From Paenibacillus sp. (lineage in GTDB: Bacteria; Bacillota; Bacilli; Paenibacillales; YIM-B00363), in contig JAPSKX010000019.1 of NCBI GenBank assembly GCA_031181325.1, forward strand, positions 1 to 44,121: 44,121 bases of DNA, read 5' to 3'. This document shows positions 15,651 through 28,735 of this stretch, one piece after another. Position 1 is the first letter of the stretch. The number at the start of each line of letters is the position of its first letter. The notes below the pieces were generated by a model, which saw nothing but the letters and a program-made list of their open reading frames with translations, ran no database searches and was not told the origin of the DNA. Position numbers and translations under genes: made by a program.

Positions 15651-18600
15651 ATGGCTCGAATACGACGCTTCCGGCTCGCGGTGCCGGCGGCGCTGCTGCT
15701 TGTCTTCGTCGCCGCGTTCGTTCTGCCGTTCGTCCCGCCGCTCGCCGGCGGTTCCGGCGGTTCGGAGCGGCCGCAGGCGAAGGAAGGCGTATTGGACTTG
15801 CGGGATTGGAGCTTCGAACGAGACGGCCCGGTCCGCCTGAACGGGGAATGGGACTTCCGGTGGGAGAGACTGCTGTCGGCGGACGAGTGGAACGGCCTCG
15901 GCGCGGAGCCGCCGAAGCGATTCGCGACGGTGCCCGGCGAATGGTCCCGCCTCGGACTGCCGGGGAGAGGATACGCGACTTACCGGCTGAAGGTGCTGAC
16001 GCAAGGCGAAACCGCTTCGCTCGGCCTTACGATTCCGGCGATCGCGCCGGCGTATCGGCTGATGGTCGGCGAGCGGGTGATCGCGGAAGCGGGACATGTA
16101 TCGGCCGACCTCGCGCAGACGAAGTCCGCTTATTCGCCGCAGTCCGTCCGCTTCGATCCCCCGGGGAACGAATTCGACCTCGTCCTCCAGGTCGCCAACG
16201 CGCTCTACCCGCAAGGCGGGGTCTGGTTCAGTCCGACGCTCGGCGACGAGCGGCAGACGCTGAACGGCATCGACCGCGACCGCATCGTCGATATGGCGGT
16301 ATTCGGCGGTTGCGCGCTGCTCGGCTTGTACCAGATCGCGGTATATGTGCTTCGGCACAAGGAGCGCTCGACGCTTTATTTCGGCATCTGCTGCTTGCTC
16401 GGGGCGCTGCGCCAATGGGTAGTAGGCGGGATGTACATCGTGGACGTGTTCCCGCAGGCGGGCATCCGCACGATCGTCTTCCTCGAGTATGTAACCTACT
16501 ACGGCGGCGTGACGATGGCGCTCCTGTTCGTGCGCCGGCTGTATCCGCAGGAGTTCGGGGATCCGCTCGGGAAGGCGCTCGTCTGGATCGGCGGCGGCTT
16601 CGTCGCTTCGATCGTCGCGTTCCCGACCGAAGTGTATACGAGCTTCATCGGGTACTTCAAGGTCGTGTCGGTGCTTGGAATGCTGTATATCCTCTACGGC
16701 TTCGGCTTGGCGTATTGGAGAGGCCGCAGGGGCGCGCTGCTGCAGCTGTCCGGGTGGCTCGTCTTCGTCGCGGCGGCGATCCATGACATCGCGTACAGCA
16801 ACGGGTACGTGTTCTGGACCGAAGTGCAGTTGGTGCTCTACGGGTTCATCCTGCTCGTCTTCATCGAAGCGATGGAGCTCGCGAGAAGGTTCTCGGACGC
16901 GTACCGCACGATCGAGACGATGACGGACGAGCTGGTCGTCATGAACCGGCTCAAGGACGAGTTTCTGGCCAATACGTCGCATGAGCTGAAGACGCCGCTG
17001 CACGGCATTATGAATTTATCGATGGCGTTGTCCGAGGGGCAGGCGGGGCCGCTCAATCCGGAGCAGCGGAAGCAGCTGGACCTCGTCGTCTCGGTCGCCC
17101 GCCGCATGTCGAACCTCATCAACGACATTCTCGATTTGTCGCTGCTGAAAAACCGAGGCATTCGGCTGAACCTCAAGCCGGTCGACGTTCGCGCCGTCCT
17201 GTCGGCGCAGCAGGAGGTATTCCGGCATTACATCGGCGAGAAGCCGGTGACGCTCCGGACGGCGTGGCCGGACGCGCTGCCGAAGGTGCTCGCGGACGAG
17301 AGCCGTCTGCTGCAGATCTTGTATAATCTGATCGGCAATGCGATCAAGTTTACACCCGAAGGCGAAGTGGTCGTCTCCGCCGCCGTCGAAGGGGATCGGC
17401 TTCGCGTCTCCGTCTCCGACACCGGTATCGGCATCCCGGCGGAGAAGCAGGGGGTCATCTTCGAAGCGTTCGAGAAGGCGGGCGCGACCCCGGCGAAGGA
17501 GTACGGCGGCGTCGGGCTCGGGCTCGGCATCGCGAAGCGGCTCGTCGAGCTGCACGGGGGCCGGATCGACGTCGCGTCGGAGGCGGGGGCGGGCTCCACC
17601 TTCACGTTTACGATCCCGGTCTACGCCGCCGGCGGCAAGTCGGAGGCGGAGGGCTCCCGGGCGTCGGACCGCTATGCGCCGGATCGGACCGGCCCGGCGA
17701 CGCAGCGTCCGGAGGCGACGGCGGCGTCGGGCTCGGGCGGGAGGGGGACGGCGATTCTAGCGGTGGACGACGACCCGGTCAATCTGCGCGTCTTGATGGC
17801 CGCGCTGGCGGGCGAACCGTATGAGATTATAACCGCGAGCGACGGCCGGGAAGCGCTGAAGCTGCTGGAGGGAGGCGGTCGTCACGTCGGACTCGTCATC
17901 TTGGACGTCATGATGCCCGGCCTTACCGGGTACGAGACGTGCCGGCTCATTCGCCGAAGCTTCGCGTTGTCGGAGCTGCCCGTGCTGCTGACGACGGTCC
18001 GAAGCGAGCCGGAGGATTTGACGCTCGGCTTCGAGGCCGGGGCGAACGACTTCCTGATCAAGCCGTTCCATCCGCACGAGCTGCGGGCCCGGGCCCGCTC
18101 GCTGCTGGAGATGAAGCGCTCCGCCGAAGAAGCGGTCCGGTCGGAGATGGCGTTCTTGCAGGCGCAGATCAAGCCGCATTTTCTGTATAACGCTCTGAAT
18201 ACGATTCTGTCGTTCTCTCTGGACGAGCCGCGAACGGCGCACGATCTGCTGCTTCATCTGAGCCGGTATTTGCGGGGCAGCTTCGACTTCAAGAACCGGG
18301 AAGGGCTGGTGCCGCTGCGCAAGGAATTGGAGCTGACGGAGGCGTATTTGCAGATCGAGCGGGCCCGATTCGGCGATCGGCTGAACGTTCGGTACGACGT
18401 GGAGGAGCATGCGGGGCTCCAAATTCCGCCGACGACGCTGCAGCCGCTGGTGGAGAATGCCGTGAGGCACGGCGTGACCAAGAACGAGGACGGCGGCACG
18501 GTGACCATATCCGTGCGAGCGCTGGACGGCGAGGCCGTCGTTACCGTCCAAGACGACGGCCCGGGCATGCCATCGTCGGCGCAGGCGGCCCTCTCGCATG

Positions 18601-18758
18601 AACGCGAGGAGGGCGGAGGCGTGGGGCTTCGCAACATTCACCAGCGGCTGCTTCGGCTGTATGGGAGAGGCCTGGACATCGCGAGCGCTCCGGGAGAGGG
18701 AACCGTCGTGACGTTCGCGATTCCGCTGCACGGCGGGGAAGGGGGAGGACGAGCTTGA
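15651..18758 (+). CDS. Hybrid sensor kinase: 7TMR-DISM, HisKA/HATPase, REC, then LytS-type kinase module
   Basis: This 1035-residue membrane receptor has a signal/TM segment, an outer jelly-roll DISM domain (about 45-210, GEWDFRWERLL and GYATYRLKV), seven membrane helices (about 215-410), HisKA with SHELKTPLHG (His near 444) and HATPase_c (LIGNAIKFTPEG, DTGIGIP, GLGLGIAKRLV). A receiver domain follows (VDDDP near 705, phospho-Asp in LDVMMPG near 752). A second, LytS-type kinase comes last (QIKPHFLYNALNTI near 840, VENAVRHG, DDGPGM). Two kinase modules flanking one receiver suggest an internal relay. The stop overlaps the start of the partner regulator gene. The ligand is unknown. Confidence 0.93.
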   Translation: MARIRRFRLAVPAALLLVFVAAFVLPFVPPLAGGSGGSERPQAKEGVLDLRDWSFERDGPVRLNGEWDFRWERLLSADEWNGLGAEPPKRFATVPGEWSRLGLPGRGYATYRLKVLTQGETASLGLTIPAIAPAYRLMVGERVIAEAGHVSADLAQTKSAYSPQSVRFDPPGNEFDLVLQVANALYPQGGVWFSPTLGDERQTLNGIDRDRIVDMAVFGGCALLGLYQIAVYVLRHKERSTLYFGICCLLGALRQWVVGGMYIVDVFPQAGIRTIVFLEYVTYYGGVTMALLFVRRLYPQEFGDPLGKALVWIGGGFVASIVAFPTEVYTSFIGYFKVVSVLGMLYILYGFGLAYWRGRRGALLQLSGWLVFVAAAIHDIAYSNGYVFWTEVQLVLYGFILLVFIEAMELARRFSDAYRTIETMTDELVVMNRLKDEFLANTSHELKTPLHGIMNLSMALSEGQAGPLNPEQRKQLDLVVSVARRMSNLINDILDLSLLKNRGIRLNLKPVDVRAVLSAQQEVFRHYIGEKPVTLRTAWPDALPKVLADESRLLQILYNLIGNAIKFTPEGEVVVSAAVEGDRLRVSVSDTGIGIPAEKQGVIFEAFEKAGATPAKEYGGVGLGLGIAKRLVELHGGRIDVASEAGAGSTFTFTIPVYAAGGKSEAEGSRASDRYAPDRTGPATQRPEATAASGSGGRGTAILAVDDDPVNLRVLMAALAGEPYEIITASDGREALKLLEGGGRHVGLVILDVMMPGLTGYETCRLIRRSFALSELPVLLTTVRSEPEDLTLGFEAGANDFLIKPFHPHELRARARSLLEMKRSAEEAVRSEMAFLQAQIKPHFLYNALNTILSFSLDEPRTAHDLLLHLSRYLRGSFDFKNREGLVPLRKELELTEAYLQIERARFGDRLNVRYDVEEHAGLQIPPTTLQPLVENAVRHGVTKNEDGGTVTISVRALDGEAVVTVQDDGPGMPSSAQAALSHEREEGGGVGLRNIHQRLLRLYGRGLDIASAPGEGTVVTFAIPLHGGEGGGRA

Positions 18759-19888
18759 TTCGCGTCATCGCCATAGACGACGAGCCGGCCGCGCTGCGGC
18801 GTACGGATAAGCTGTTGCGGACGTTCGACGGAGTAGAGGTATGCGGACTGTACGACAGCCCCAAGAAGTTTCTGGAATATGCGCTTACGTCTCCGGACGC
18901 GTTCGAGCTGGCGCTGATCGATATGGAGATGCCCGGCTTGCACGGGTTGGAGCTGGCCCGCCGGCTGAGGGACGTCCGTCCGGAGGTTCGCGTCGTGTTC
19001 GCGACCGCGTACGAGGAATTCGCCCGCGAAGCCTTCGACGTCGAGGCGCTCGATTATTTGCTCAAGCCGATGACGGAGGAGCAACTGGCCAGAGCGCTGA
19101 GCCGCTGCAAGAAGCAAGTCGGCATCCAAGCGGGGGCGGCCGCGGCGCCGGCCGTGTCCGTCCGCAGCTTCGGGCCGTTCTCCGTTATCGCGACCGGGGA
19201 GGCGCCGATGCGGTTCCGCAACTCGAAGAGCAGAGAGCTGCTGGCCTACCTGCACGAGCGCGGGGGGCGACCGGTCGGCAAAGCCCGCATCGTCGAAGAG
19301 CTCTGGCCCGAAGGCGATCCCGAGCGGGCGCAGGTCATTCTGCATTCGACGGTGTACCAGCTGAGGAAGGATCTAGAGGCGTACGGGCTGGCGGACGTCG
19401 TCGAGCATTCCAAGACGGCGGGAGGCGGTTACTGCCTTCGCTGGCCGTTCGCGATCGACGACGATGCGGTCGAATTCGATCTCGCCTGCCGGGAGTTCGA
19501 GCGCAGCGCGTCGCTGACGCCGGTCTTGCGAGCGATTCGGCTGTACGGCGACGGGTACTTGGCCGGCAGCGGATACGGCTGGGCGGCGCCTCGCCAGGCG
19601 GAGCTGGAGATCAAGTATTCGGAGCTGCTGGAAGCGACGGTCGACGCGTACGTGCGCGCGGGACGTTACGATCTCGCCCTCGCTCCGCTGCAGAAGGGAG
19701 TTCGGCTGCTGCCGCTGGAGGAGCGGCTGCACGCGAAGATGATCGCCTTGCTGCTGCTGTCGGGTCGGGAAGCGGACGCGAAGCGGTATTTCGAGCTCGT
19801 CTCGGATTTGCTGGAGGAGCCCGACGGAGACGCGTCGAACGGGTTGGACTTTCCCCGGATTCGCGCGAATCCCGTCTCGTTTTTTTAA
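18755..19888 (+). CDS. Response regulator with REC, winged-helix and BTAD (SARP-like) domains
   Basis: This 377-residue regulator starts with TTG overlapping the kinase stop by 4 bases, so the two are translationally coupled. It has a receiver domain (acidic IDDE at 7-10, phospho-Asp 56 in LIDMEMPG, Lys 104 in LLKPM), a winged helix (about 135-235, RNSKSRELLAYLHERGG and LWPEGDPERA) and a bacterial transcriptional activator domain of TPR-like helices (about 240-370). The receiver is of the LytTR/CheY-like kind (EALDYLLKP), which suits the LytS-type kinase module. A strong terminator follows, so this is a closed two-gene signalling unit. Its targets are unknown. Confidence 0.93.
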   Translation: MIRVIAIDDEPAALRRTDKLLRTFDGVEVCGLYDSPKKFLEYALTSPDAFELALIDMEMPGLHGLELARRLRDVRPEVRVVFATAYEEFAREAFDVEALDYLLKPMTEEQLARALSRCKKQVGIQAGAAAAPAVSVRSFGPFSVIATGEAPMRFRNSKSRELLAYLHERGGRPVGKARIVEELWPEGDPERAQVILHSTVYQLRKDLEAYGLADVVEHSKTAGGGYCLRWPFAIDDDAVEFDLACREFERSASLTPVLRAIRLYGDGYLAGSGYGWAAPRQAELEIKYSELLEATVDAYVRAGRYDLALAPLQKGVRLLPLEERLHAKMIALLLLSGREADAKRYFELVSDLLEEPDGDASNGLDFPRIRANPVSFF

Positions 19889-20118: not shown

Positions 20119-20910
20119 ATGCATACGAAGGATAGCTTACTGAAGCAGCTCGGGCGCATGGGCATCGACGGCGGCGGGACGCTGCTCGTTCATTCGTCGA
20201 TGAAAAGCATCGGGCCGGTCGAGGGCGGCGCGGATGCGGTTCTGGATGCATGTTCCGAATACATGAGAGACGGGCTGCTCGTGTTTCCCGCCCATACGTG
20301 GTCGTACGTCAATGCGGCGCAGCCGAAATTTTACGTGGAGCGGTCGCCGGCTTGCGTAGGGATCTTGCCGGAGCTCTTCCGTCAACGGCCCGGCGTCGTG
20401 CGCTCCTGGCATCCCACGCATTCGGTGTCCGCGCTCGGAAGGGAAGCGGCCGCGTTCGCGAGCGGCGATCATCGCTTCGATACGCCGTGCGCCAGAGGGT
20501 CCGCCTGGGGGAAGCTGCTCGATCGGAGGGCGACGATCCTGCTCGTCGGCGTCGATCTGACGCGCAATACGTTCATCCACGGCGTGGAGGAGTGGGCGGG
20601 CGTCCCGGGTCGATTGACGGACGACCCGGAGCTGCTGTACACGGTGCTGCCGGACGGGACGGAGATTCCCGTGCCGTCACGAAGGCATCGCGGGAGCGTA
20701 TCGGAGCATTACTGGAAGGTGGACGGCGTGCTGGAGAGGGAAGGCGCGATGCGGAAGGAACGGCTCGGCGAGGCCGTCGTCCGCGTCTGCGACGCGGAGG
20801 CCGTGACGAACGTGCTGACGGCGATGCTCCGGGACCGTCCGGAGCTGTTCTCGGACAATGAACCGATCGCCGAAGCTCGTCCCGCCGCGCGGAAGGGGGA
20901 CGTCGAATGA
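20119..20910 (+). CDS. AAC(3)-family N-acetyltransferase (antibiotic_NAT fold)
   Basis: This 263-residue protein has the aminoglycoside 3-N-acetyltransferase architecture: LLVHSSMKSIGPVEGGADAV near the N-terminus, a central LLVFPAHTWSYV, PTHSVSALG (histidine of the active site region) and LLVGVDLTRNTFIHGVEEWAG. Chromosomal members in Bacillales (YokD-like) are often not drug-resistance enzymes, so aminoglycosides are only one possible substrate. AAAGGAGAG precedes the ATG. The stop overlaps the sigma gene start (ATGA), which makes the pair an operon and suggests that the sigma factor and acetyltransferase respond together. Confidence 0.9.
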   Translation: MHTKDSLLKQLGRMGIDGGGTLLVHSSMKSIGPVEGGADAVLDACSEYMRDGLLVFPAHTWSYVNAAQPKFYVERSPACVGILPELFRQRPGVVRSWHPTHSVSALGREAAAFASGDHRFDTPCARGSAWGKLLDRRATILLVGVDLTRNTFIHGVEEWAGVPGRLTDDPELLYTVLPDGTEIPVPSRRHRGSVSEHYWKVDGVLEREGAMRKERLGEAVVRVCDAEAVTNVLTAMLRDRPELFSDNEPIAEARPAARKGDVE

Positions 20911-21869
20911 GCGGCTCTTCCGGGATTGTCGAAACGGCCGAATCGATGCGGTCCGAGCTGATCGGCTACTGTTACCGCATGGTCGGCTCCGCCTTCGACG
21001 CCGAGGACGCGGTGCAGGAGACGATGCTTCGCGTCTGGCGGAACGAGGGTCGGATTCGGGAAGACGCGTCCAGGAGAGCCTGGGTGTACCGTATCGCGAC
21101 GAATGTATGTCTGGACAAGCTGCGCCAAGCCAAGCGCCGGGCGCTGCCGATGGATGTGACCGATGCGGCCGAGCGCATCGCCGCGCCGCGGGAGAGCCTT
21201 CCGCGAGCGGCCTGGGTGTGGCCGTCTCCCGACGCCGCGGGCGATCCGGCCGAGGTCGCGGAGGCCAGGGAAACCGTTCGGCTATCGTTCATTGCGATGT
21301 TGCAGACGTTGCCCCCGAGGCAGCGCGCGGTCTTGATCTTATGCGACGTCCTTCGCTGGCCGGCCGGGCAGGCGGCGGAGGCGCTCGGCATGACCGCCGC
21401 CGCGGCGAACAGCGCTCTACAGCGGGCGAGGAGCACGCTGAAGCAGTCGCGGCTTCGGTCCGAATCGCTGCGAGAGCTCGACGGCGAATCGGACCGCCGC
21501 TTGGTCGCCAGCTACGTCGAGGCGTTCGAGCGATACGATATCGACAAGCTGTTGGCGCTGTTTACCGAGCAAGCGAGCCTGTCGATGCCGCCTTATACGA
21601 TGTGGGTATGCGGCAACGCGAACATCGCGGCATTCTTGGAGGCGACTCGCGCTCACTGCGCGGGCTCCCGCCTGCTGCCGCTGCGCGCGAACGGCGGTTG
21701 TCCCGCCTTCGCGCAGTACGTGCCGTCCGAGCGGCCGGGCGTTCTGCTCCCGTGGAGCATCATCGTCCTGGAGCCGCGGGATGGGAAGATCGCGCATGCC
21801 CACTTCTTCATCGACGTCGACCTATTCCGCCTGTTCGGCATGCCGGCGGAGTGGTCCGCCGACCGATAA
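20907..21869 (+). CDS. ECF sigma factor with C-terminal SnoaL-like domain (SigJ/TIGR02960-like)
   Basis: This 320-residue protein has sigma region 2 (YCYRMVGSAFDAEDAVQETM), region 4 (LPPRQRAVLILCDVLRWPAG and SALQRARSTLKQ), then a SnoaL-like domain of about 120 residues (VASYVEAFERYDIDKLLALF, ending FRLFGMPAEW). In related ECF41/SigJ-type factors this C-terminal domain controls activity in place of a classical anti-sigma factor, which fits the absence of an anti-sigma gene here. Translation is coupled to the upstream AAC(3)-family gene by a 4-base overlap. Its promoter targets cannot be told from the sequence. Confidence 0.9.
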   Translation: MSGSSGIVETAESMRSELIGYCYRMVGSAFDAEDAVQETMLRVWRNEGRIREDASRRAWVYRIATNVCLDKLRQAKRRALPMDVTDAAERIAAPRESLPRAAWVWPSPDAAGDPAEVAEARETVRLSFIAMLQTLPPRQRAVLILCDVLRWPAGQAAEALGMTAAAANSALQRARSTLKQSRLRSESLRELDGESDRRLVASYVEAFERYDIDKLLALFTEQASLSMPPYTMWVCGNANIAAFLEATRAHCAGSRLLPLRANGGCPAFAQYVPSERPGVLLPWSIIVLEPRDGKIAHAHFFIDVDLFRLFGMPAEWSADR

Positions 21870-21963
21870 ACGACGACCCTCGGCCCATGGAATCGGGCCT
21901 TTCGACTGACGCGCGGAATGTAAGGGCGCGGCATCGATATTAGGAGAACGAAGGAGACGAAGC

Positions 21964-22914
21964 ATGAACGTGATCTTGGAGTATCGCGAAGAGCTGGAGC
22001 TCGTGTTCGCCGAGGCGGCGCGCGACGTCGACGCGCTGCCCGCCGGACTGCGCGAACGGGCGAAGCGGCTGCTGGAGCGGAGCGATCCGCTTCGGAACGG
22101 CGGACGGGCGAACGGGATCGTCTACCTGCTGCCGTATTGGATGCAGGAGCGGACGCGCGGTTCGACGGCGCTGTGCCGAGAACTGGCGGTCGGCAATGTA
22201 TTTATGATGCTGAGGTTTTTCCTGTTGGACGACGCGATGGACGGGGTCGGCGAGCGAGCGCAAGAGACGCGCGGCTCCCTGGCGCTCGTTCCGCTGATGG
22301 ATGAGCTGTTCTTGCAACGGTATCGGCGCCGCTTCCCGAGCGATTCGGCGCTCTGGAGCCGCTATCGCGCGTACTTGGAGCAATGGGCCGCGGCCGTCGC
22401 CGCGGAAGGGGAGAGGCCGATGGACCCCAGGGACGCGGGCGCGCTCTCCGGGAAAGCCGCGCCCGTGAAGATCGGCGCCTGCGGGATGCTGCTGAACGCA
22501 GGGATGCCGGAGCGTCTCCCCGCCGCGGAGGAAGCCGTCGATCTGGCGCTGGCCGTACTGCAGCTGTCCGACGACCGGGCGGACTGGCAGGAGGATCTGC
22601 CCGTCGCGAACGGCAGCGCGTTCCTGTCGATCGTGCGGGAATGCCTTCCGGACGGCGGCGTCCTCCCGCCGGACGAGGCCGCCGTCCGCAGGGCCATCTA
22701 TCACTATGGCGCCCTGGACCGGCTCGCGGATGCCGCGGGGCGCTATGTCGAACGGCTGCGCCGAATCCCCGAAGTCCCGGAGCGGCTCGCCGCTTTCGCC
22801 GAAACCATTGCCGCAGGAATGCGGCGGGAGGCCCGTGAGACGAACGAGAAGGTTCGGATGCTGGCGGACGAGGGCGGGTTTTCATATTTTTTGTCGACGC
22901 AAGCAGAAAAATAG
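21964..22914 (+). CDS. Class I isoprenoid-synthase-fold protein
   Basis: This 316-residue, almost entirely helical protein holds both aspartate-rich motifs of trans-prenyl synthases and terpene cyclases. The first is DDAMD at residues 89-93 (FFLLDDAMDG). The second is DDRAD at 203-207, followed by WQED (LQLSDDRADWQED). Together they would bind the magnesium-diphosphate of an allylic isoprenoid. Overall identity to housekeeping polyprenyl synthases looks low, and length and fold are compatible with ComQ-like modifying enzymes. AAGGAG lies 7 bases before the ATG. The next gene, 68 bases on, encodes an NHLP-type peptide, suggesting that this enzyme makes or attaches an isoprenoid for that peptide (inference). 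Confidence 0.8.
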   Translation: MNVILEYREELELVFAEAARDVDALPAGLRERAKRLLERSDPLRNGGRANGIVYLLPYWMQERTRGSTALCRELAVGNVFMMLRFFLLDDAMDGVGERAQETRGSLALVPLMDELFLQRYRRRFPSDSALWSRYRAYLEQWAAAVAAEGERPMDPRDAGALSGKAAPVKIGACGMLLNAGMPERLPAAEEAVDLALAVLQLSDDRADWQEDLPVANGSAFLSIVRECLPDGGVLPPDEAAVRRAIYHYGALDRLADAAGRYVERLRRIPEVPERLAAFAETIAAGMRREARETNEKVRMLADEGGFSYFLSTQAEK

Positions 22915-22933
22915 GGCAAATTTACCATATCGA

Positions 22934-22942
22934 TGATATAAT
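22934..22942 (+). promoter_or_regulatory. Extended -10 promoter of the NHLP-type peptide gene
   Basis: TGATATAAT is a perfect extended -10 element (TGnTATAAT) 40 bases before the peptide start. No good -35 is present (GGGCAA at 17 bp), as is usual for extended -10 promoters. The peptide can thus be made in excess of the enzyme encoded upstream. Confidence 0.65.
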
Positions 22943-22982
22943 AGAAGAGTAAGTACATTTTCCCGAAAAGGGGGCAGTTATT

Positions 22983-23231
22983 ATGACATCAGTCGCGACG
23001 GTCGCATCGAAGAGTCAAATCGTTCAGAAAGCTTGGGAGGATCCGCAGTTCAAGGCGCAATTGCTTGCGAATCCGAAGAGCGCGCTCAAGGACGCGTTCG
23101 GCATCGAGCTGCCGGAAGGCATGGAAGTGAGAGCACTGGAAGAGACGCCGTCCTCCTACTATCTCGTCATTCCGCCGAGCCCGTCCGACTTGAAGCGCGA
23201 AGCGAAGAGCGCGGAGTATGTTTGGAGCTAG
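22983..23231 (+). CDS. NHLP-type (nitrile-hydratase-leader-like) peptide, candidate RiPP precursor
   Basis: This 82-residue peptide matches the nitrile hydratase alpha-like leader pattern: KAWEDPQFKAQLLANPKSAL at 16-35, GIELPEGMEVRALEE at 40-54, and YYLVIPP at 59-65. A 17-residue tail follows (SPSDLKREAKSAEYVWS). The tail has no Cys and no double-glycine cleavage site, but it ends in Tyr and Trp (Tyr 79, Trp 81), residues known to be prenylated in other peptides (ComX Trp, cyanobactin Tyr/Trp). AAAAGGGGG precedes the ATG. Upstream is the isoprenoid-fold gene. The stop codon overlaps that of the converging histidine kinase. No maturase, peptidase or lantibiotic-type enzyme is adjacent. Confidence 0.78.
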   Translation: MTSVATVASKSQIVQKAWEDPQFKAQLLANPKSALKDAFGIELPEGMEVRALEETPSSYYLVIPPSPSDLKREAKSAEYVWS

Positions 23232-25120
23232 TCTTGCGCCGAAAGAGGGAACCGGAGTATCGCTTCGGTTCCTTCGCCTTTCCTGCTGCGAAATTCCAAC
23301 GTCCCCTTCATCACTTCGACGATGCGGAACGTGACCATCAAGCCGAGTCCGGTCCCCTTCGTCTTCGTGGAGAAATACGGCTCGCCGAGCTTCGCGATCT
23401 GCTCCGTGTCCATGCCTTGTCCGTTATCCGCGATCCGGATGACGACCGTGCTTTCCTCCGCATACGCCTCTACCTCGATGCTGCCCTCTTCCCGGAACGA
23501 TTCGATGCTGTTCTTCATCATATTGATGATCGCCTGTTTAAACTTGGAGACGTTGCCCAGCACGACCAGACCTTCGTCGGCGCGGACGCGGAGCGCTCCG
23601 CCGTGCAGCATGACCAACGGACCGATGATCGTCTCGATGTTGCATAACAGCTGCTTCACGTCCATGGGGACGATCGTGTCCTGCTCCGGCTTCGCGAACG
23701 TCAGGAAATCCGAAATGATGTCGGAAGCCCGGTCCAGCTCGCTGATCGCCATCATGTAATGGGGCTTGTTTTCTTCCGTCGAGCTCCGGATCAACATCTG
23801 CAAGAAGCCTCTCGTCACCTGCAGCGGATTTCGGATCTCGTGCGCGACCGACGCGGCGAGGTCGCTCACGATTCGCATGCGCTCCGTCTTCTGCAGCTGG
23901 CGGCTGTGCAGCTCCAGCTCTCTCGAGTAGTCGAGCAGCTTCGCGTAATCGGCTACGACGCGACGGATGAGAATCATCACGAGGCAGACGATCAGGAGGA
24001 CGATGCCGATCTTCCAGAGCGTCAGGATGTACGGACGATGAAGAACGGACAACAGCACCAGATCGGCGACGGCCGAGAGCGCGAAGCCGACGATGCCGGC
24101 CGACAGGAGCAAGAAATCTCTGTTCTTACGCAGCGCGTACCTCACCGCAAGGAAGATCGCTAGCAGCATCTGCAGCACGATGAGCGGAAGAAGAATCCAA
24201 AACGTAAACAGCTTATAGAATACATAGAAAGGGTCGCCGATCGCCTGCTGGAGGATCAGCATCGCGAAGCAGAACATCGAATACCCGATCAGCCAACGTG
24301 CGGCCTTCCGGAAGAAGGCGTGCGTATCCTCGTAGATATGCACGACGAAATAGGTGAACGACGGAAACAAAACCAGCATCGACGTATCGAACAGGAACAA
24401 CAGCTCGCGCCCGAAATTCGGGTAATAGAAGAACGGCAAGGAGGAATAGGAGCCGATCAGCGCGCCCGTCGACAAGATGAACAGGCTGAGCGCCGCCGTC
24501 ATTCTTCGATGCTGCCATTGCGAAAATCCGGTAACCGACAGCATGACGAATCCGAGGAACGCGATGGCGGCGCCGAGCAGCGGGTTGCTCAGCTCCTTCC
24601 GCACGTTGGCCGCGTTCAGCGCGTCGTACGCTCCGACGCGCACGACGCTGCCGATGCCGGCGCGCTCCTTCGACTCGATGCGGAGGTAGAGCTCGTTCGC
24701 GGTCGAAGACGCCCGAAGCGGAACAAGAACGATGTTTCGTTCGAAATCGTAGTTCCGCGAGGCGCGGAACACCGGCTTCCCGTCCTCGTATACGGTATAA
24801 TCGAGCCCGTACAGGCGTTCGATATATAATCCGGGATGATCGTATGCGGCCGTGGGCGGGATGGGGATCCGTATCCAAGCGCCGACGGCCCCTTGGGGAA
24901 TCGTCGTCAAGGGACGGCTCACGGTGGCGTCTTGCCATTCGCCTTCCTGCGAAGGCGGGGACGACGCGCGCGGCTCCGATTCGCCGATCCAGCGGACGCT
25001 CCAAGCGTCGACGGGAAGCTCGGAGACGGCCGGTTCCTCCGCTTCGGGCATGCACATCCATAGCGCGAAGGCCGCGACGCAAACCAGGAACAGCGTTAGG
25101 GGGAGTCGATATGGTTGCAT
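23228..25120 (-). CDS. Membrane sensor histidine kinase, 7TMR-DISM type
   Basis: This 630-residue protein has a signal/TM segment (about 6-24), an outer DISM-like beta domain (about 40-180, with DAWSVRWIGE), seven membrane helices (about 185-395), a HisKA domain with VAHEIRNPLQVTRGF, and a HATPase with NMMKNSIESF, DNGQGMD and GTGLGLMVT. The kinase core resembles the orphan sporulation-kinase group (KinA/KinB-like) of Bacillales rather than the ComP/NarL group. No response regulator adjoins it. It faces the NHLP-type peptide gene with overlapping stops, so a receptor role for that peptide is possible but unsupported. The ATG is preceded by AGGTG at a longish distance. Confidence 0.9.
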   Translation of the reverse strand: MQPYRLPLTLFLVCVAAFALWMCMPEAEEPAVSELPVDAWSVRWIGESEPRASSPPSQEGEWQDATVSRPLTTIPQGAVGAWIRIPIPPTAAYDHPGLYIERLYGLDYTVYEDGKPVFRASRNYDFERNIVLVPLRASSTANELYLRIESKERAGIGSVVRVGAYDALNAANVRKELSNPLLGAAIAFLGFVMLSVTGFSQWQHRRMTAALSLFILSTGALIGSYSSLPFFYYPNFGRELLFLFDTSMLVLFPSFTYFVVHIYEDTHAFFRKAARWLIGYSMFCFAMLILQQAIGDPFYVFYKLFTFWILLPLIVLQMLLAIFLAVRYALRKNRDFLLLSAGIVGFALSAVADLVLLSVLHRPYILTLWKIGIVLLIVCLVMILIRRVVADYAKLLDYSRELELHSRQLQKTERMRIVSDLAASVAHEIRNPLQVTRGFLQMLIRSSTEENKPHYMMAISELDRASDIISDFLTFAKPEQDTIVPMDVKQLLCNIETIIGPLVMLHGGALRVRADEGLVVLGNVSKFKQAIINMMKNSIESFREEGSIEVEAYAEESTVVIRIADNGQGMDTEQIAKLGEPYFSTKTKGTGLGLMVTFRIVEVMKGTLEFRSRKGEGTEAILRFPLSAQD

Positions 25121-25328: not shown

Positions 25329-26603
25329 ATGCGGCAGTATATCGAATCTCCGGTCATGCAAGAGCGGTTGTACAAAAGAACCTTGTTTATCGTCGCCCTC
25401 TCGCAGCTGTTCGGCGGCGCCGGGCTGGCGGCGGGCGTGACGGTCGGCGCTTTGCTCGCCCGGGACCTGCTCGGCTCGGACGGCGCGGCAGGCATCCCGT
25501 CCGCGCTGCTCACGCTCGGATCCGCCGCGGCGGCGCTGCTCGTCGGGCGGCTCTCGCAGCGAGCCGGGCGACGCCTGGGGCTGACCGCAGGCTTCCTCGT
25601 CGGCGGCGCCGGCGCGATCGGCGTCGTCGCGGCGGCGGTTACGGAGAGCATCCCCTTATTCTTCGCTTCGCTGCTCGTGTACGGGTTCGGCGGGGCCACG
25701 AACCTGCTGGCCCGCTACGCGGGCACCGACCTGGCGAAGCCGGGGCAGCGGGCGAAGGCGGTCGGCATCGCGCTCGTATCCACGACGTTCGGCGCCGTCG
25801 CCGGCCCGAATTCGGTCGGCGCGACGGGCGAATTCGCGGCGTCGCTCGGCATTCCGGCGCTGGCGGGGCCGTTCCTTCTCGGCGCCGCGGCATACTTGCT
25901 CGCCGGCCTCGTCTTCGCCGCGCTGCTCCGCCCGGACCCGTTCCTCGTCGCGAAGGCGATTCACGAGGCGCGGGAAGCGCAGCCGGCGGCGGATCGAGCC
26001 GCTTCCGGGGAAGGGCGTCAGCCGATCGGAAACCGGAGAGGGCTCGTCGTCGGCGCGGCCGTCATGATCCTGACGCAGATCGTCATGGTCGCGATCATGA
26101 CGATGACGCCGATCCATATGGGGCATCACGGCTTCGATCTAAACGACGTAGGGCTCGTCATCGGCTTCCATATCGGCGCGATGTACCTGCCGTCGCTCGC
26201 GACCGGCGCGCTCGTCGACAAGGTCGGCCGTACCACGATGGCGATCGCGGCCGGCGTCGCGCTGTTGGCCGCCGGAGGAGTGGCGGCGGCCGTTCCGGGG
26301 CACTCGCTCGTCGGCCTCGTCGCCGCGCTCGTCCTGCTCGGCCTCGGCTGGAACTTCGGTCTGATCAGCGGTACCACGCTGATCGTGGACGCGACGCATC
26401 CGGCCGCCCGAGCGAAGACGCAAGGCGCGATCGATGTCGCGGTCGCGCTGGCCGGCGCGTCGGGGGGCGCGCTGTCGGGCCTCGTCGTGGAGCAAGCCGG
26501 CTTCGCCGCGCTGTCGCTGTCGGGCGCCGCGTTAGCGCTGCTGCTGCTTCCCGTCGTCGTCTGGTCCGGCGCCCGGCGCAGGTCGCGGTCGTCCTCGACC
26601 TAG
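25329..26603 (+). CDS. MFS transporter, probable efflux pump
   Basis: This 424-residue protein has twelve hydrophobic helices in two halves separated by a charged loop (HEAREAQPAADRAASGEGRQ, about 220-240). MFS signature A-like loops occur between helices 2 and 3 (GRLSQRAGRRLG) and in the second half (GALVDKVGRTTM). The composition is extremely Ala/Gly/Val-rich. The long frame extends upstream to 25194, but AAGAGGG precedes ATG 25329, which starts just before the first helix. Substrate and direction cannot be inferred; drug or metabolite efflux is the usual guess for this type. Its stop overlaps the ABC-cNMP gene end by 4 bases. Confidence 0.85.
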   Translation: MRQYIESPVMQERLYKRTLFIVALSQLFGGAGLAAGVTVGALLARDLLGSDGAAGIPSALLTLGSAAAALLVGRLSQRAGRRLGLTAGFLVGGAGAIGVVAAAVTESIPLFFASLLVYGFGGATNLLARYAGTDLAKPGQRAKAVGIALVSTTFGAVAGPNSVGATGEFAASLGIPALAGPFLLGAAAYLLAGLVFAALLRPDPFLVAKAIHEAREAQPAADRAASGEGRQPIGNRRGLVVGAAVMILTQIVMVAIMTMTPIHMGHHGFDLNDVGLVIGFHIGAMYLPSLATGALVDKVGRTTMAIAAGVALLAAGGVAAAVPGHSLVGLVAALVLLGLGWNFGLISGTTLIVDATHPAARAKTQGAIDVAVALAGASGGALSGLVVEQAGFAALSLSGAALALLLLPVVVWSGARRRSRSSST

Positions 26604-28735
26604 CCCCGCGCTTCCGACAGGATGCGCTGCAGGTCGGGCTCCTTGTCGACGATATGCCGGAACGATTCGCGGCTTAGCGTGATGAACATCGTCGGCGTCA
26701 GCGCCGTAATGGTCGCCGTGCGCGCGACGTCGCGCAAGAGGGCGATCTCGCCGAAGAAATCGCCGTCGCTTAAGACCGCCAGCTGCGCGGACCGCCCGTC
26801 GACGTCCTTCGTCACCTCGACCTTGCCGCGGACGATAATGTAGAACTTGTCTCCCGGATCGCCTTCTTGGATGATCGTCTTGCCCGTCGGGTACGATTCG
26901 GTGACGAACAGCGGAGCGATCTCCTCCAGGAACGCGAGCTCCACCGCTTCGAACAACGGCACCTTCTTCAGCTTGGCCGGCTGGATGACCGCGTGGATGC
27001 CGTCGTCGCTGAACGAGAAGCCGCTTTGCTTCTCCCAGGCCTCCGCGTATTTGCCGTTGGCGGCGAGCAGCTCCGGATGCGTCCCTTGTTCGGCGAGCCG
27101 TCCCTTGTCGAGAACGAAGATGCGGTCGGCATGCTCCGCGGACGCCAGCCGGTGCGTGATGGAGACGATGGTCGTCGTTCGGGCGAGGTTGAGAATCGTC
27201 CGGTTGACGGCGTCCTCCGTCGACGGATCCAGGGCGGAGGTCGCCTCGTCCAGAATAAGAAGCCGCGGGTTGCGGACCATCGCGCGCGCGATGCCGATCC
27301 GCTGCCGCTGGCCGCCGGACAGCCGTCCGCCGCGTTCGCCCGCGAGCGTGTCGTAGCCTTCGGGCAGCGTCAGGATGAAATCGTGGATTTCCGCCGCGCG
27401 CGCCGCTCGTTCGATGTCCTCGTCGGTCGCCTCGGGGTTGCCGAGGCGAATATTTTCCCGAAGCGAGACGTTGAACAGGAAGTTGTCTTGGAACACGATG
27501 CTGATCTGGCTTCGCAGCGATTGCTGCGCGACCGCGGCGATGTCGACCCCGTCGTACAGGACACTGCCTTCGCGGGGATCGTAAAACCGCATGAGCAAGT
27601 TAATGATCGTGCTCTTCCCCGACCCGCTGGCGCCGACGAACGCGGCGTAGGAGCCGTACGGGATGCGAAGGTCGATCTCCGACAAGTTCGCCCGCCCCTC
27701 CGTATAGCCGAACGTCACGCCGCGAAATTCGACGCTTTCGGACAAGGGAGGCAGCGGGGACGCGTTCGGCGCGTCGGTGACGGACGGGCGTTCGCTCAAG
27801 ATTTCGTCGATGCGCTCCATGCCCGCCGACGCCTGCATCATCTGCGGCACGATCCAGGTGACGGCCGCCACCAAGTTGCTTAACGTCAGCAGAATCGTGC
27901 TGAACGCCAGCAGCGAGCCGATCGACAAGTGGCCGTCGAAGGCGAGGAGCGACCCGATGCAGATGGCGATCAAATTCAAGACGACGGTGCCGAGATTCGT
28001 CGTGCGGTCCACGAGGAAGGAGAAGAAGTGCGACCGGGACGCCTTCCGAACGTAGCGGTTCATCGACTCCGCGAATCGGTCGTTCATCCGCGATTCCAAG
28101 CCGAACGCCTTCACGACGGTCTGCGCGCCGAGATTTTCCTGAATCGCGGTCGTGATCGAAGCTTGCTCCTCTTTAAGCTCGTAGTTGGCATCGTACGCCC
28201 GCTTCCCGAACAGCTTCGGACCGATCAAGCAGAGCGGCAGGCCGATCACGGCGATCAGCGCGAGCTGCCACTGCAGGGCGAAGAGGACGACCACGTTCAG
28301 GAACAAGCCGAGGAAGGAGAGCAGCACGTACGGAAGCATCATAACGAAGCCGTCCACGGACGACAAGTCGGAGTTGAACCGGGCGAGCAGGTCGCCGGCG
28401 CCGCGCCGCGAGAAAAACTCCATCGACATGCCCTGAATGTGGCGGAACAGCTTCTCGTGAATGTCGCGCATCACGCTCGGACCGACGGCCGCATAGGTCC
28501 GGTCCCGTAGGATGCCCATCCCCGCGGCCGCCGCGGCTCCCAGCAGCAAGGCTCCGAGAATGATGATCAGCAATCTGAAATTCTGGGGCAGAATCGCGTA
28601 ATCGACGACGATCTTGAAGCTGACCGGCAGCAGCGTCTCGAAGGCGAGCTCGACCAGCAGCGCAAGCGTCAGGATCGAGGAAGGCTTCTTGTATTTGGCG
28701 AACAGGGCGGGCAAGCCCTTGAAAATGTAAAGCAT
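26600..28735 (-). CDS. ABC exporter half-transporter with C-terminal cyclic-nucleotide-binding domain
   Basis: This 711-residue fusion has six membrane helices (about 15-320), a nucleotide-binding domain with Walker A GASGSGKS (near 370), signature LSGGQRQR and Walker B LLILDEATSALD, then a linker and a cNMP-binding fold (about 590-705). The latter contains the phosphate-binding cassette FGEIALLRDVARTATI, with the arginine that normally contacts the cyclic phosphate. There is no N-terminal peptidase domain. A stand-alone exporter of this size would end near 580 residues. The gene lies 22 bases downstream of the deoxyhypusine-synthase-like gene on the same strand, so export of a related product is plausible. 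Confidence 0.92.
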   Translation of the reverse strand: MLYIFKGLPALFAKYKKPSSILTLALLVELAFETLLPVSFKIVVDYAILPQNFRLLIIILGALLLGAAAAAGMGILRDRTYAAVGPSVMRDIHEKLFRHIQGMSMEFFSRRGAGDLLARFNSDLSSVDGFVMMLPYVLLSFLGLFLNVVVLFALQWQLALIAVIGLPLCLIGPKLFGKRAYDANYELKEEQASITTAIQENLGAQTVVKAFGLESRMNDRFAESMNRYVRKASRSHFFSFLVDRTTNLGTVVLNLIAICIGSLLAFDGHLSIGSLLAFSTILLTLSNLVAAVTWIVPQMMQASAGMERIDEILSERPSVTDAPNASPLPPLSESVEFRGVTFGYTEGRANLSEIDLRIPYGSYAAFVGASGSGKSTIINLLMRFYDPREGSVLYDGVDIAAVAQQSLRSQISIVFQDNFLFNVSLRENIRLGNPEATDEDIERAARAAEIHDFILTLPEGYDTLAGERGGRLSGGQRQRIGIARAMVRNPRLLILDEATSALDPSTEDAVNRTILNLARTTTIVSITHRLASAEHADRIFVLDKGRLAEQGTHPELLAANGKYAEAWEKQSGFSFSDDGIHAVIQPAKLKKVPLFEAVELAFLEEIAPLFVTESYPTGKTIIQEGDPGDKFYIIVRGKVEVTKDVDGRSAQLAVLSDGDFFGEIALLRDVARTATITALTPTMFITLSRESFRHIVDKEPDLQRILSEARG

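Follow-up and report, generated by a model that had tools for sequence, protein, structure and literature searches.

Does an enzyme with the Asp-rich motifs of class I isoprenoid enzymes, encoded directly ahead of a small peptide with a nitrile hydratase-like leader, prenylate that peptide, and do the two genes form a system by themselves? This question is raised by a Paenibacillus sp. contig (JAPSKX010000019.1; the 44,121 nucleotides analysed are referred to below as the window), for which a sequence-only reading had proposed a minimal two-gene system in which the enzyme attaches, or makes, an isoprenoid for the C-terminal tail of the peptide. We find that the locus is a homologue of a published system, the three-gene PalQ/PalX/PalP cluster of Paenibacillus alvei, which includes a histidine kinase and was described in 2023 (PMC10853753), and that it represents a substrate-position variant beyond the published biochemistry. 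The prenylation proposal agrees with that characterised homologue and is not a new idea, while the description as a two-gene system had missed a third conserved gene.

The enzyme and its adjacent precursor peptide

The palQ homologue (positions 21964-22914, plus strand) follows a Shine-Dalgarno-like aaggag read from the sequence (21951-21956, plus strand) and encodes 316 residues, predicted to form a class I (trans-isoprenyl diphosphate synthase-like) peptide Trp prenyltransferase. Both Asp-rich motifs are present as had been described, the FARM (DDAMD) at residues 89-93 and the SARM (DDRAD) at residues 203-207. Searches of Pfam (at E≤1) and NCBIfam returned no family for this protein, neither PF00348 nor the terpene synthase families matched as sequence profiles, and a sequence search of the PDB found no meaningful solved relative; the fold is therefore assigned by structure prediction. 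An AlphaFold2 model (pLDDT 93.5, pTM 0.92, from a 54-sequence alignment) superimposed on the polyprenyl synthase 4jyx over 277 residues at 2.9 Å and 12% identity (VIA-align Z 23.3), and Foldseek likewise returned the trans-isoprenyl diphosphate synthase fold (E 3.8e-4). The predicted fold is thus of that type, as the sequence-only reading had anticipated.

Our genome scan also returned the published P. alvei genome (locus L130, AMBZ01000001.1), whose PalQ is 33% identical to the window enzyme over 315 columns spanning the whole length (E 4e-54). The motif set of the PalQ family is present in the window enzyme (D89, D90, D93, Q200, D203, D204 and D207), with Gln200 corresponding to PalQ Gln197, which is thought to hold the substrate indole (PMC10853753). 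Among the 141 loci compared, Asp89 and Asp93 of the FARM, Gln200, and Asp203, Asp204 and Asp207 of the SARM were kept in all non-gapped rows. In vitro, PalQ has been shown to prenylate the C-terminal Trp of PalX, itself an NHLP peptide, at C3 of the indole, using DMAPP, GPP or FPP as donor and forming a pyrroloindoline (PMC10853753).

The palX homologue (22983-23231, plus strand) begins 68 bp beyond palQ, behind a purine-rich, ribosome-binding-site-like aaaaggggg read from the sequence (22966-22974, plus strand); no consensus promoter rose above chance in the region of the locus. Its 82-residue product carries an NHLP leader (approximately residues 8-66, to VIPPSP), confirmed by a TIGR03793 score of 71.6 bits against a curated cut-off of 50.9 and accompanied by a score of 51.8 bits for PF02979 (NHase_alpha). 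The variable tail that follows (approximately residues 67-82, the SDLKREAKSAEYVWS region) lacks Cys, contains the Tyr79 and Trp81 that had been pointed out earlier, and ends in ...EYVWS. The codon of Trp81, the predicted prenylation site (TGG, 23223-23225, plus strand), is followed by AGC for Ser82 and the stop codon TAG.

The pairing of enzyme and peptide extends well beyond this contig. Of 151 related genomes, 92 hold an enzyme homologue, and these 92 are also precisely the ones with PalX-like peptides (E<1e-10); no peptide at that threshold occurred in the enzyme-less genomes of this set, and two further genomes gave weak palX matches only (E 1e-5 to 1e-3), inside long frames. The enzyme was present in 273 of 395 genomes in an order-wide sample, and a class-wide sample of 399 genomes contained no family member beyond the order Paenibacillales. 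Around 152 distinct enzymes we identified 164 adjacent peptides on the same strand within 1.5 kb. Seven of the 152 enzyme loci had no such peptide, three of which have one farther away or on the opposite strand. In two Cohnella (L068 and L075) the kinase gene comes directly after palQ and leaves no room for palX, which seems to have been lost or moved.

A Trp lay within the last seven residues of 162 of the 164 peptides, while every other tail position varied and only one other Trp appeared among 3059 tail residues; the tail as a whole is variable but its Trp stays. That residue is last in 93 peptides, penultimate in 47, third from the end in 18 and fifth from the end in three. The one remaining peptide is that of P. 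alvei itself (L130), in which the Trp is found only in a shifted reading. The deposited DSM 29 record is frame-shifted at a run of T near the end of palX (L130:7185-7280, reading NVRRFSGNPFF... where DNVRRFFW was published), which may reflect a sequencing difference in that run. Of the two peptides without a Trp, that of L087 is a frame continuing beyond the tail and that of L167 a degenerate fragment.

An ordinary prenyl diphosphate or terpene synthase beside a peptide that is a chance neighbour would also present this fold and both Asp-rich motifs of the trans-isoprenyl diphosphate synthase type, and PalQ itself was once annotated as a terpene synthase. We regard that account as very improbable: the window enzyme falls outside PF00348 and the terpene synthase families by sequence while its genome holds three other PF00348 genes, on which grounds a housekeeping identity was rejected; the characterised homologue prenylates its peptide; and co-occurrence with, and adjacency to, a Trp-ended peptide are strict across the Paenibacillales. 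The pairing is more than chance, and homology, synteny and the invariant Trp together indicate that the window enzyme very probably prenylates Trp81. None of the three outcomes that the sequence-only reading had named as refuting it (a peptide lacking the enzyme gene, an unconserved tail, a housekeeping product) was borne out by these comparisons.

In five loci (L005, L006, L007, L062 and L082) a single palQ is followed by a tandem array of three to five palX genes whose tails differ, an arrangement that suggests families of products.

Position of the predicted acceptor tryptophan

Addition of an Ala after the C-terminal Trp of PalX abolishes the activity of P. alvei PalQ (PMC10853753), and the natural ...WS end of the window peptide consequently lies outside the known biochemistry. 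The window palX, ending in ...YVWS, does not have the strictly C-terminal Trp of the characterised substrate. Since the need for a terminal Trp is a property of one characterised enzyme, we place the window among variants of the PalQ system rather than with C-terminal-Trp enzymes. What is new here is that the putative acceptor Trp is penultimate throughout the clade to which the window belongs, and third or fifth from the end in other clades.

When the Trp offset was mapped onto the enzyme tree it required 10 changes, against a mean of 47.4 after shuffling, and none of 200 shuffles was as low; these shuffles ask solely whether the offset label clusters. The number of independent origins is uncertain because the tree (152 rows, SH-aLRT support) was built by a quick method and some of its deep branches are open. 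The window enzyme falls in an eight-row clade (support 99) with tails YVWS, YNWG, YNWS and YNWT, nested within a larger, less well supported and mostly penultimate-Trp group. Elsewhere on the tree are another penultimate-Trp group and two groups with the tails CGPWR[STD] (15 rows) and MWGTG[GS] (three rows).

A rival account places the residue after the Trp outside the specificity of the enzyme: either a carboxypeptidase trims it, or it arises passively from the CTAG (23228-23231) that the stop codons of palX (plus strand) and the kinase gene palP (minus strand) have in common where the two genes overlap tail to tail, and PalQ acts on a terminal Trp in every case. The requirement of P. alvei PalQ for a terminal Trp fits this account, as do the window and eight relatives in which the shared bases of the two stop codons force a C before the palX stop. 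Against it, of the 47 penultimate-Trp peptides only 17 overlap palP, 26 end clear of it and four have no palP detected, whereas 15 terminal-Trp peptides do overlap it. All copies share one Trp offset in 10 of 10 multi-precursor loci, even far from palP (five of five in L062), and eight genomes with two systems each hold one penultimate and one terminal precursor set, which a trimming step shared by the whole cell does not explain. We therefore consider trimming or passive overlap possible but doubtful; the uniform multi-precursor loci and the two-system genomes argue for Trp position as a trait linked to the enzyme rather than to cell-wide processing.

The penultimate Trp of the window's clade means either that the enzyme has evolved to accept one following residue or that the last residue is removed first, and the enzyme-linked pattern favours the former. 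We found no single enzyme residue in the aligned loci that marks penultimate-Trp substrates. The substitutions F86H/L and D90E are found in three further clades with extended tails but are absent from that of the window, and the position matching PalQ K39, for which a contact with the carboxylate has been proposed, fails to discriminate the offset classes.

Two of the other extended-tail groups have features of their own. The 15-locus clade L176-L191 has a near-invariant tail, YDVNCGPWR[S/T/D], with a Cys three residues ahead of the Trp; the enzymes of this clade have F86L and no Trp after the SARM. The core of this clade barely varies, unlike those of other clades, and its product may be under different selection. 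In L173, L175 and L190 the precursor ends in EPAAMWGTG[G/S], and the enzymes have DExxD as first motif and sit on a very long branch.

PalQ has been promoted as a tool that lipidates terminal Trp only. Natural clades in which the Trp is followed by further residues would be a source of enzymes for modifying an internal Trp, and would help to locate the specificity switch.

The convergent kinase and the proposed pathway

The third gene of the trio, palP (23228-25120, minus strand), encodes a 630-residue membrane histidine kinase with HisKA and HATPase domains; we used the ATG at 25120 as its start, with 25699 a possible start of a longer ORF. Its layout comprises a transmembrane helix, an extracytoplasmic beta domain (approximately residues 35-164), further transmembrane helices (approximately 165-360) and the HisKA and HATPase domains, and a predicted model (pLDDT 80.6) shows the same succession of helix, beta domain, helix bundle and kinase. 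When the sensor half alone was used as query, 141 of the 152 loci gave a homologue; it lay on the opposite strand in every case and directly after palX in nearly all, and the ends of the two genes overlapped in 32 of the 141. ORF clustering across 81 loci (cut-off 100 residues, for which palX is too short) identified as conserved only the enzyme (81), the kinase (80) and antisense shadows of both genes. No response regulator, exporter or peptidase was a conserved neighbour among ORFs of at least 100 residues at these loci, and the earlier statement that no other maturase lies near the pair holds.

The solved structure nearest to the PalP kinase domain by sequence is sporulation kinase B (KinB; 170.6 bits, the next scoring 101.5), which also ranks first by structure (Z 23.2), tied with ZraS (22.9); in a fold search with the whole model the matches were taken up by the kinase domain. 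Unlike KinB, PalP bears the predicted extracytoplasmic beta domain and a membrane domain of its own. The phospho-acceptor motif AAS-x-AHE-x-RNPLQV is invariant except at its x positions in 199 sequences, which suggests that PalP homologues share one common partner. PalP itself is an orphan, its kinase domain resembling that of KinB. The gene order, together with the analogy to ComP, gives about an even chance that PalP senses the prenylated peptide.

Directly upstream of palQ is a SigX5-type ECF sigma factor with a SnoaL/NTF2-like C-terminal part (20907-21869, plus strand), which is not conserved elsewhere, and before it an Antibiotic_NAT family protein resembling AAC(3) acetyltransferases (20119-20910, plus strand) that scores far below curated resistance cut-offs. 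Positions 15651-19888 (plus strand) encode first a large hybrid histidine kinase carrying a 7TMR-DISM domain and then a BTAD-domain response regulator; the pair is not conserved across loci and was rejected as a partner of the system. The ABC exporter encoded at 26600-28735 (minus strand), in which a cyclic-nucleotide-binding domain (PF00027) is fused C-terminally to the ATPase, was likewise rejected as a partner of palQ, as it is not a conserved neighbour.

We envisage the following pathway, the prenyl chemistry of which has been shown for P. alvei PalQ/PalX (PMC10853753). The NHLP leader of PalX would dock on PalQ, which would bind a prenyl diphosphate (likely C10 or C15) through Mg2+ at its Asp-rich motifs. 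Transfer of the prenyl group to C3 of the Trp81 indole would be followed by closure of the pyrroloindoline ring through the backbone N, and a protease could then free a short C-terminal core with a ...YVW-S end (or ...YVW once trimmed). The lipidated peptide would serve as a signal, and the convergently encoded membrane kinase PalP as its sensor. Release, export and signalling output are guesses, since the conserved neighbours of these genes include neither a peptidase nor an exporter nor a response regulator.

The prenylated peptide might instead be a bacteriocin-like antimicrobial, with PalP sensing envelope stress, or the peptide itself for self-protection. Some RiPPs with NHLP leaders are antimicrobial. 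Prenylation by PalQ also raises the activity of membrane-active peptides (review PMC13290415). Against this, the cores are short and differ widely, and a gene for a sensor kinase is all that is conserved besides the pair, with no immunity or export gene among the conserved neighbours; we judge an antimicrobial role unlikely. As for the signalling reading, a broader proposal can be put forward tentatively, and we hold it less probable than its opposite: that the PalQ family has shifted several times between terminal-Trp and internal-Trp enzymes (one, two or four following residues), approaching ComQ/ComX, and that the prenylated peptide is a pheromone for a KinB-like kinase, feeding a lipopeptide signal into sporulation or a comparable decision in Paenibacillales. 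With a convergent kinase at nearly every locus, the biological output of this system, which is widespread in Paenibacillales, can be tested directly.

Relation to ComQ/ComX and to the P. alvei system

Like ComQ/ComX, the locus pairs a trans-isoprenyl diphosphate synthase-like enzyme with a small precursor whose Trp is the (here predicted) site of prenylation, next to a membrane histidine kinase, and the Trp of ComX is internal, as in the clade of the window. PalQ and ComQ share 25% identity or less (PMC10853753). ComQ is without the second Asp-rich motif, whereas the window enzyme has both, and no NHLP leader is known for ComX, whereas the window palX has one. The comQXPA genes lie on one strand and include a response regulator (PMC4008528); by contrast, palP is convergent, on the opposite strand in 141 of 141 kinase-bearing loci, with no regulator beside it, and four adjacent genes on one strand were not seen at the PalQ-type loci examined.

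The likeness to the P. alvei system is closer. The window enzyme is adjoined, as in the PalQ family, by an NHLP precursor with a Trp near its C-terminus and by a convergent histidine kinase gene; gene order is the same in the window and in P. alvei, and the FARM, the SARM and the putative Trp-binding Gln are kept. The difference lies in the substrate: P. alvei PalX ends in the Trp that its enzyme requires, whereas the window palX and its whole clade end with one residue more.
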